Origin: Chloroflexota bacterium
Lineage (GTDB): Bacteria > Chloroflexota > Anaerolineae > UBA4142
Direction of reading: 5' to 3'
Length of the DNA: 44,711 bases
NCBI GenBank assembly: GCA_016219275.1
Contig: JACRBM010000032.1
Span: 92,054 to 136,764 of the forward strand
Shown here: one piece after another, positions 15,651 through 31,270 of the stretch
Position numbering within the stretch: the first letter of the stretch is position 1
How the letters are laid out: every line of letters begins with the position of its first letter
Program-made: the position numbers and the translations under genes
The notes under the pieces: model-generated
Database searches by the model: none
What the model was told of the DNA's origin: nothing
What the model saw: only the letters and a program-made list of their open reading frames with translations

Positions 15651-15743
15651 TGTCATTGCGAGCCGCAGAGCGGCGAAGCAATCCCTGATTCGCGGTTTGG
15701 GGATTGCTTCGTCGCAAACGCTTGGCGGCTCCTCGCAATGACA
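15651..15743. mobile_element. MITE-like palindromic element (TGTCATTGCGAG termini), copy 1
   Basis: Termini are TGTCATTGCGAG and its exact complement CTCGCAATGACA. Inner arms also pair: GCGAAGCAATCCC with GGGGATTGCTTCG, and GCCGC with GCGGC. At 93 bp with no coding capacity it looks like a non-autonomous mobile palindrome. A second copy with the same termini lies at 30744-30864. It sits in the intergenic region 15521-15811, which otherwise holds only the mrp promoter. Confidence 0.65.
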
Positions 15744-30251: not shown

Positions 30252-31172
30252 TCACATCAGCGGTTTCATCGTTCGCATCGTTTGTTCCGCCGCGCGCGTC
30301 ACATCCGGCTTGGGCAGGATTTCCGCGCTGACCCAGCCCGCGTATTTCATTTCGCGCAGCGTTGCGATGACGCGCGCGAAATCAATGTGCCCTGCGCCGG
30401 GAAACCACCGATTCGAATCGGCGATGTGAACGTGGAACAAACGCGAACCACACACGCGTAAGCTCACCTCGATGCGTGGTTCTTCGATGTTCGCGTGAAA
30501 CGTGTCGAACAAGATTCCCAGGTTGTCTGCGCCGACTTTCTCGATCACGTCGAGTGCGTCCGCCGCAGTGTTGATGAGATTGGTTTCATAGCGATTGATT
30601 GGCTCGAGGACGAGGCGCACGTCTTGCGAGCGCGCCGCTCGCGCAACATGACGCAACGCGTCCACCATCCACGCGTGCGCTTGCTCGCGCGCGACGCCGG
30701 ATTGCTCTTTGCCGCGTATCAGACCCAGGATGACCAATGGGGTTGTCATTGCGAGGAGCGAATTGTGTGACGAAGCATTTACCCCTCCCTCTCCCTCCCC
30801 TTGATAAGGGGAGGTTAGGGGTGGGGTTAGGGATTGCTTCGCTTCTTCGAGACTCGCAATGACATGCGCGAGCGCGATGTGCGACTCGACACGTTCAATC
30901 GCGCGCGCGCGGATGGATTCGTCGGGATCGGTGAACGAAAGATGCTCTTCGACGTACGCTTGCCCGGTGCCGAGCGCGGGGACGCGCAAGTGATGCTGGT
31001 CGAGCATCTGCTTGACCGCGCGCGCGTCGAGTTTTGCCGGTTCGCGCACCGCGAGCTCTGCGCCCGCGTATCCCAACGAGGCGAGATGCGCGAGCTGGGG
31101 TTCGAGATCGGGCGAGAACGCGACGGCGGCAAACTGGGTCGGTTGGGTGGAGAGGACGAATGAGAGATTCAT
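30252..31172 (-). CDS. iolO: 5-keto-L-gluconate epimerase-like TIM-barrel protein (IolO type) with in-frame insertion
   Basis: A 306-residue xylose-isomerase-like barrel. Segments PALGTGQAYVEEHLSFTDP, LEPINRYETNLINTA, GILFDTFHANIEE and FHVHIADSNRWFPG match, from memory, the Thermotoga IolO (TM0416) that epimerises 5-keto-L-gluconate to D-tagaturonate in inositol catabolism. Metal ligands (Glu in LEPIN, Asp in FDTFH, His in HVHIAD, Glu in SAEIL) are present. Residues about 103-143 (SLEEAKQS...NSLLAMT) are the translation of a 121-bp repeat (30744-30864); homologues go straight from this helix to the strand PLVILGLIRG. The insertion keeps the frame, so the protein may still work or may be disabled. 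Downstream of the IolN-like gene, probably the same operon. Confidence 0.78.
   Translation of the reverse strand: MNLSFVLSTQPTQFAAVAFSPDLEPQLAHLASLGYAGAELAVREPAKLDARAVKQMLDQHHLRVPALGTGQAYVEEHLSFTDPDESIRARAIERVESHIALAHVIASLEEAKQSLTPPLTSPYQGEGEGGVNASSHNSLLAMTTPLVILGLIRGKEQSGVAREQAHAWMVDALRHVARAARSQDVRLVLEPINRYETNLINTAADALDVIEKVGADNLGILFDTFHANIEEPRIEVSLRVCGSRLFHVHIADSNRWFPGAGHIDFARVIATLREMKYAGWVSAEILPKPDVTRAAEQTMRTMKPLM
30744..30864. mobile_element. MITE-like element (TGTCATTGCGAG termini) inserted in the iolO-like gene, copy 2
   Basis: Termini TGTCATTGCGAG and CTCGCAATGACA are identical to copy 1 (15651-15743). Inside, ACGAAGC and GATTGCTTCG echo copy 1, and the centre carries a second palindrome (CCTCCCC-TTGATAAG-GGGAGG) of another repeat family, so it is nested. 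No clear target duplication is visible. It is open in the gene's frame. Confidence 0.75.
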
Positions 31173-31182
31173 AAGCAATCAA

Positions 31183-31270
31183 GGATGAAGGCGCGCTTCG
31201 CGGGATGAAGGATGAATGTCTAGCACAGCATCAGTTTCATCCTTCATCCTTCATATTTCATTCTTTATCC
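31183..31270. repeat. Heptamer repeat, GGATGAA/TTCATCC family (copy 1)
   Basis: GGATGAA at 31183, 31203 and 31210; then TTCATCC at 31236 and 31243, TTCATAT, TTCATTC and TTTATCC in 7-bp register to 31270. The two halves are complementary. It fills the gap between the IolN- and IolO-like genes and enters the end of the former. Confidence 0.8.

Follow-up and report, generated by a model that had tools for sequence, protein, structure and literature searches.

We analyzed a 44,711-nucleotide stretch of a Chloroflexota contig, referred to here as the window, in which an IolO-like sugar epimerase gene contains a palindromic element within its reading frame (Table 1). The initial annotation had described this element as a composite with a second palindrome at its centre and with 12-bp termini matching those of an intergenic copy. 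An exact-match scan agrees: the terminus TGTCATTGCGAG lies at 30744-30755 (plus strand) and 30853-30864 (minus strand), is identical to 15651-15662/15732-15743, and recurs exactly nowhere else in the window, the four copies forming two inverted pairs (15651-15743 and 30744-30864). The outer arms (30744-30762/30846-30864) are 19 nt each and enclose the inner palindrome, whose own arms span 30781-30802/30806-30827. Folded as single-stranded DNA, the 121-bp element reached −36.8 kcal/mol (z = −8.4 relative to shuffles). The minus-strand reading frame (30252-31178) stays open throughout, with ~41 codons from the element and zero stops, in line with the stop-free translation first proposed. Another repeat family is present at the start of the gene, as an inverted/direct repeat GGATGAAGGATGAA...TTCATCCTTCATCC at window positions 31178-31254; a MiaB-like reading frame of a related genome (G006, locus L345) contains, in frame and twice, a peptide (HPSSFILHPS, NHPSSFILPPS) that looks related to it.

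Table 1 Coordinates of the IolO-like gene, its palindromic element and the intergenic copy in the window.
Feature	Position	Strand	Details
IolO-like sugar epimerase reading frame, 308 aa from TTG 31178 (ATG at 31172)	30252..31178	-	PF01261, TM0416/2zvr; holds the element
Palindromic element, 121 bp (3n+1)	30744..30864	.	Minus-strand reading VIASLEEAKQSLTPPLTSPYQGEGEGGVNASSHNSLLAMT; entered in codon phase 2
Half-hairpin 1, TGTC tag and ATTGC...GCATT (GCAAT decayed)	30744..30779	+	Sequence and half-hairpin analysis
Half-hairpin 2, TGTC tag and ATTGCGAG...GAAGCAATC	30832..30864	-	Inverted copy of half 1; match G000:C32:122885-122917
Nested inner palindrome, ACCCCTCCC...CCCCTT/AAGGGGAGG...GGGGT	30781..30827	.	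Separate repeat family
Intergenic copy of the same element family, 93 bp, without inner palindrome	15651..15743	.	Exact termini, palindrome analysis

The identity proposed for the host gene was upheld, as its product matches PF01261 in two stretches (E = 4e-43) and its best solved match is Thermotoga maritima TM0416 (2zvr; TM-score 0.93-0.95 by target), in an alignment that covers both flanks of the insert. We take TM0416 to be IolO, 5-keto-L-gluconate epimerase. The element had been placed in a TIM barrel between a helix and a strand, with an alignment of IolO homologues suggested as a check; in that alignment, insert-free homologues join the same helix and strand by a loop of 4-6 residues (EFNA, QFDPTP), and the insertion occupies this loop. 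The AlphaFold model of the protein with its insert (pLDDT 91) retains an intact TIM barrel in which helix 3 (residues 85-115) is lengthened by the VIASLEEAKQ stretch, followed by a low-confidence unstructured segment (116-135), before the chain rejoins at strand 4 (146-149). Residues of metal-binding or catalytic type (E190, D223, H249, and E284) are invariant in the IolO alignment, and dN/dS values of 0.18 (G000-G001) and 0.14 (G006-G012) indicate that the flanks are under purifying selection in both carrier pairs. In TIM barrels, helix-to-strand loops sit opposite the active site, which would explain why the insert is tolerated here. Given its modeled position and this topology, the insert should lie on the face away from the active site, and we expect the enzyme to remain active.

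Across the 6.16-Mb source genome (G000), we found 99 exact TGTCATTGCGAG termini and none of a reversed-pattern control, and the repeat is therefore not a product of chance. The genome has about 60 complete elements (58 in the regions read), whose ends read TGTCATTGC and carry TGTC as a terminal tag on both sides in all exact copies. Head-to-head dimers predominate, with inverted pairs at 58 of ~70 loci. Each half is itself a hairpin: ATTGC pairs with GCAAT in 149 of the 168 halves ending in GCAAT, and the tips vary among copies yet stay self-complementary (GCCGC/GCGGC, GGGC/GCCC, GACCC/GGGTC). Hairpin halves of this build recur in further families from the same class and phylum. By a strict pattern, 16 of 58 elements have an inner CCCCTCCC palindrome between their halves; since it also appears at 6 places outside any complete element, it is an independent repeat capable of nesting. 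With this organization, a head-to-head dimer of CGTC/TGTC-tagged REPs is a closer match to the element than a transposase-derived MITE. The original label "MITE-like" thus holds only in part: the halves are REP-type hairpins, no transposase bounded by these ends came out of the Y1 and paired-end searches below, and the duplication seen at the flanks is a weak 2-bp one.

Other copies add to this picture of the family. A CCTTCGACTCCGCTCAGG-type palindrome is nested within in-frame elements of G006 and G012 (L217, L220, L034, L359, and L363), so insertions pile up inside insertions with the frame unbroken. On one contig of the source genome (C38), a gene with an NRPS condensation domain and one for a MalT-like regulator contain near-identical 73-bp elements in frame (L203 2547-2619 and L204 2476-2548), which suggests recent copying. 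Another family of the class (G020) has 214 exact termini in 3.2 Mb, some of them packed densely in tandem-like arrays (e.g., several units ~20-60 bp apart on C112).

We compared the flanks of 114 copies from two genomes for signs of how the repeat moves. Identity of exactly 2 bp was found at 17 copies compared to 6.8 expected by shuffling (p ≤ 0.0005), the duplication being absent in 85% of copies; longer duplications were not enriched, and no flank motif emerged beyond a weak composition. A Y1/RAYT transposase was considered as the mobilizer and ruled out, as the repeat is unlinked to Y1 genes: within 1.5 kb of 17 Y1-transposase loci in 8 genomes there was no exact TGTCATTGCGAG and a single hit with 1 mismatch. 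Nor were any two exact ends among the 99 places in G000 separated by 0.5-3 kb, as those of a parent insertion sequence would be. A near-match, TGTCATTGCGGG, lies within a Y1-transposase reading frame of G020 (L252 1587-1598), possibly as an in-frame copy or by chance.

The same 114 copies (58 from G000 and a sample of 56 from G006, both metagenome assemblies) were used for a census of coding insertions, in which a copy was counted only if a reading frame spans the element and the gene has Pfam support; element-containing reading frames without a Pfam family were left out (L154, L188, L199, L329, L333:4786, L339, and L346). By this definition, 25 of the 114 lie in frame in Pfam-supported genes, which bears out the suggested parallel with rickettsial palindromic elements as a source of repeat-derived peptides in proteins. 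Eight of the 58 copies in G000 are coding (RsmD, GH67, a PMT-like protein, HsdR, a second PMT, the NRPS condensation domain, the MalT-like regulator, and IolO), as are 17 of the 56 in G006, among them HemC, RsmG, MutS2, HycI, a formylglycine-type domain, a MiaB-like enzyme, an M3 peptidase, and a type ISP restriction enzyme. RsmD and IolO are counted in both genomes. A rough projection for G006 gives ~70 genes with coding copies.

The genome-wide search for intragenic copies and the test for frame bias, both proposed alongside the initial annotation, revealed a strong preference: 22 of the 25 coding copies are entered in phase 2, reading "VIAS" (p ~1e-7; 7e-7 without the two double-counted genes), and most exit as "LAMT". 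Outside genes, all three phases are open at similar rates in G000, as are two of the three in G006. Length is likewise skewed, with 21/25 coding copies being 3n+1 as opposed to 37/89 elsewhere (p = 1e-4), an excess that agrees with a 2-bp duplication, since 3n+1 plus 2 bp keeps the frame. A 3n+1 copy can be placed without a stop in two ways; 20 copies use VIAS...LAMT and a single one CHCE...RND (p = 2e-5). This imbalance suggests that the CHCE...RND peptide is rejected or that insertion itself favours one codon phase. Ten further elements are flanked by sequences that are open in different frames; a scan of both sides of each showed no gene cut in two.

We then asked what the same loops hold in relatives. 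A repeat-derived peptide was present in the same loop of a relative for 5/5 G000 genes checked. In IolO, the inserts of G001, G006, and G012 begin with TGTCATTGCG or TGTCATCGCG at the same codon but differ in content, and that of G012 retains only the left element end; six family members have no insert. Homologues in unrelated taxa with the same loop had been named as refuting the insertion, and the outcome comes close to this: three relatives are filled at the same IolO junction, but outgroups are empty. Since all carriers belong to the family and hold this mobile repeat in their loops, with nested repeats that differ, and the outgroups lack it, the pattern indicates recurrent insertion or retention, not an ancestral loop. 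From these alignments, the insertion first noticed in the window is not a one-off. On the IolO gene tree, built with the insert columns removed, carriers fall in two clades, and a single carrier clade is rejected (AU p = 3.5e-5).

In RsmD, both junctions are common to G000, G006, and G009 and the left one also to G007, with short loops in G001, G010, G013, and others (single carrier clade, AU p = 0.047). In GH67, the left arm occupies the same loop in G011, and other repeats lie there or nearby in G010 and G012. The PMT-like protein is filled in G000, G001, G009, and G012 and empty in five others; because the positions and exit frames differ, these insertions are independent across genera. The second PMT insert is common to G000 and G007, and the HemC and RsmG inserts to G006 and G012, being absent in G000. 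Retention by descent is likely outside the PMT-like protein, and loop re-use, as the alignments read, is partly new insertion and partly descent. Loop residues beside the insert are often missing, so that insertion is not a clean addition. An apparently longer insert at another locus (L072) was rejected as a joined match.

Taken together, these observations very probably mean that the IolO insert is a copy of an abundant mobile repeat, a head-to-head dimer of two TGTC-tagged REP-like hairpins that here encloses a nested palindrome, and that selection keeps the in-frame copies. The repeat would insert with what is probably a 2-bp target duplication, as we infer from the flanks, and selection would then retain those intragenic copies that stay in frame, preferably in the frame whose arms read VIAS...KQS and ...LLAMT. 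In IolO, the peptide would extend helix 3, pass through a disordered loop, and rejoin before strand 4. Copies may persist and gather nested repeats in a small number of tolerant loops, and the same loops of orthologues would be refilled partly by independent insertion, as in the PMT-like protein, and partly by descent.

Recurrence in the same loops could instead reflect a target-sequence preference of the inserting machinery, which we think unlikely: RsmD junction codons are identical in three genera, with the left junction also in a fourth, and IolO left junctions in four genomes, but identical junctions may be common descent, different codons are hit in the PMT-like protein, and the 114 copies have only weakly biased flanks. 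Those identical RsmD junctions also suit one ancestral insertion per gene followed by many losses or allele exchange, with little new insertion, as do the inserts that G000 and G007 have in common in RsmD and the second PMT, and those in HemC and RsmG common to G006 and G012. We regard this history as doubtful to a similar degree, given the AU tests on IolO and, at p = 0.047, on RsmD, the ancestral-looking loops kept in empty relatives, and the differing positions and exit frames in the PMT-like protein.

A role for the inserted peptides is harder to credit. That they serve the host, through an interaction surface, regulation, or stability, would account for the shared loops in all five G000 genes checked, the long retention between genera, and the single dominant reading frame, and the RsmG insert has a dN/dS of ~0.4 over a short stretch of 30 codons. 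However, the similarly short HemC insert gives ~1.2, unrelated repeats replace insert cores, many orthologues have no insert, the core is predicted by AlphaFold to be disordered, and rejected CHCE...RND peptides would produce the frame bias equally well; we therefore find host use quite improbable. A mixed reading, in which the mobile hairpin is a standing source of insertions into a few strand-adjacent loops of conserved enzymes, in one preferred frame, and some peptides persist across genera because they have become useful, seems rather unlikely. It is very improbable that the hairpin is removed from the RNA or bypassed in translation, leaving a protein without the peptide: the message hairpin is strong (by DNA folding parameters), but every one of the 25 validated copies keeps an open reading in frame, and the 10 out-of-frame candidates include no interrupted gene, which removal would permit. 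Assembly error or a pseudogene is more remote again, for although metagenome assemblies with hundreds of repeat copies invite such errors, the same gene has inserts in four separate assemblies, and its reading frame is intact with dN/dS of 0.14-0.18.

The preferred reading, a mobile REP-like dimer retained in frame, places this family among several known systems. Until now, mobile palindromes that are translated within proteins have been known chiefly from Rickettsia. Its palindromic elements (RPEs; Ogata 2000), found in 19 genes in the first report as summarized in a later review (PMC2229807), are palindromes of about 100-150 bp with 12-bp terminal repeats, in frame and tolerated within conserved enzymes, and a Gmk enzyme with such an insert is active (PMC2229807, PMC10969869). 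The Chloroflexota element is likewise a palindrome of similar size with 12-bp termini, stop-free in frame in conserved genes (25 validated). It differs in its apparently unrelated sequence, its Chloroflexota hosts with genomes of 4.8-6.2 Mb, its nested second repeats, the same-loop recurrence across genera, and the ~70 coding copies projected for one family in one genome.

Its build is nearest to CGTC/TGTC-tagged REPs, though its stem departs from theirs in length. In the main text of Di Nocera 2013 (PMC3733652), these REPs have a CGTC/TGTC tag (also CCTC) and a stem starting with AT, form mostly head-to-head dimers, have no associated transposase, and in some copies lie within genes. Terminal TGTC, head-to-head pairs, and the lack of Y1 linkage are common to both, but in place of the 8-9-bp stem and 4-5-bp loop given there, the Chloroflexota units are longer, with a 5-bp base stem (ATTGC/GCAAT), a bulge, and a long variable tip. 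Same-site recurrence has a small precedent in the same text, which describes two Xanthomonas species whose recB genes have REPs at roughly matching positions. We did not find the Chloroflexota family in that main text, and a literature text search for GTCATTGCGAG matched only papers on unrelated subjects. Like the MITEs Correia/NEMIS, ERIC, and Chunjie, the element is short and non-autonomous, with terminal inverted repeats, a strong hairpin, and hundreds of copies; unlike them, it has no partner insertion sequence found, a weak 2-bp duplication, and halves that are each a hairpin.

RPEs and intragenic REPs were thus already known, while the phylum, density, frame bias, and shared loops appear new. 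Compared to Rickettsia, the genomes are larger and one family is denser, and the same loop can be seen empty, filled, nested, and decayed across related genera, so that one can test how mobile DNA comes to be accepted in proteins, what frames are rejected, and whether the peptides are neutral or have gained a role. With one repeat family in many conserved enzymes, these Chloroflexota relatives offer a rich natural test of proteins absorbing mobile DNA.
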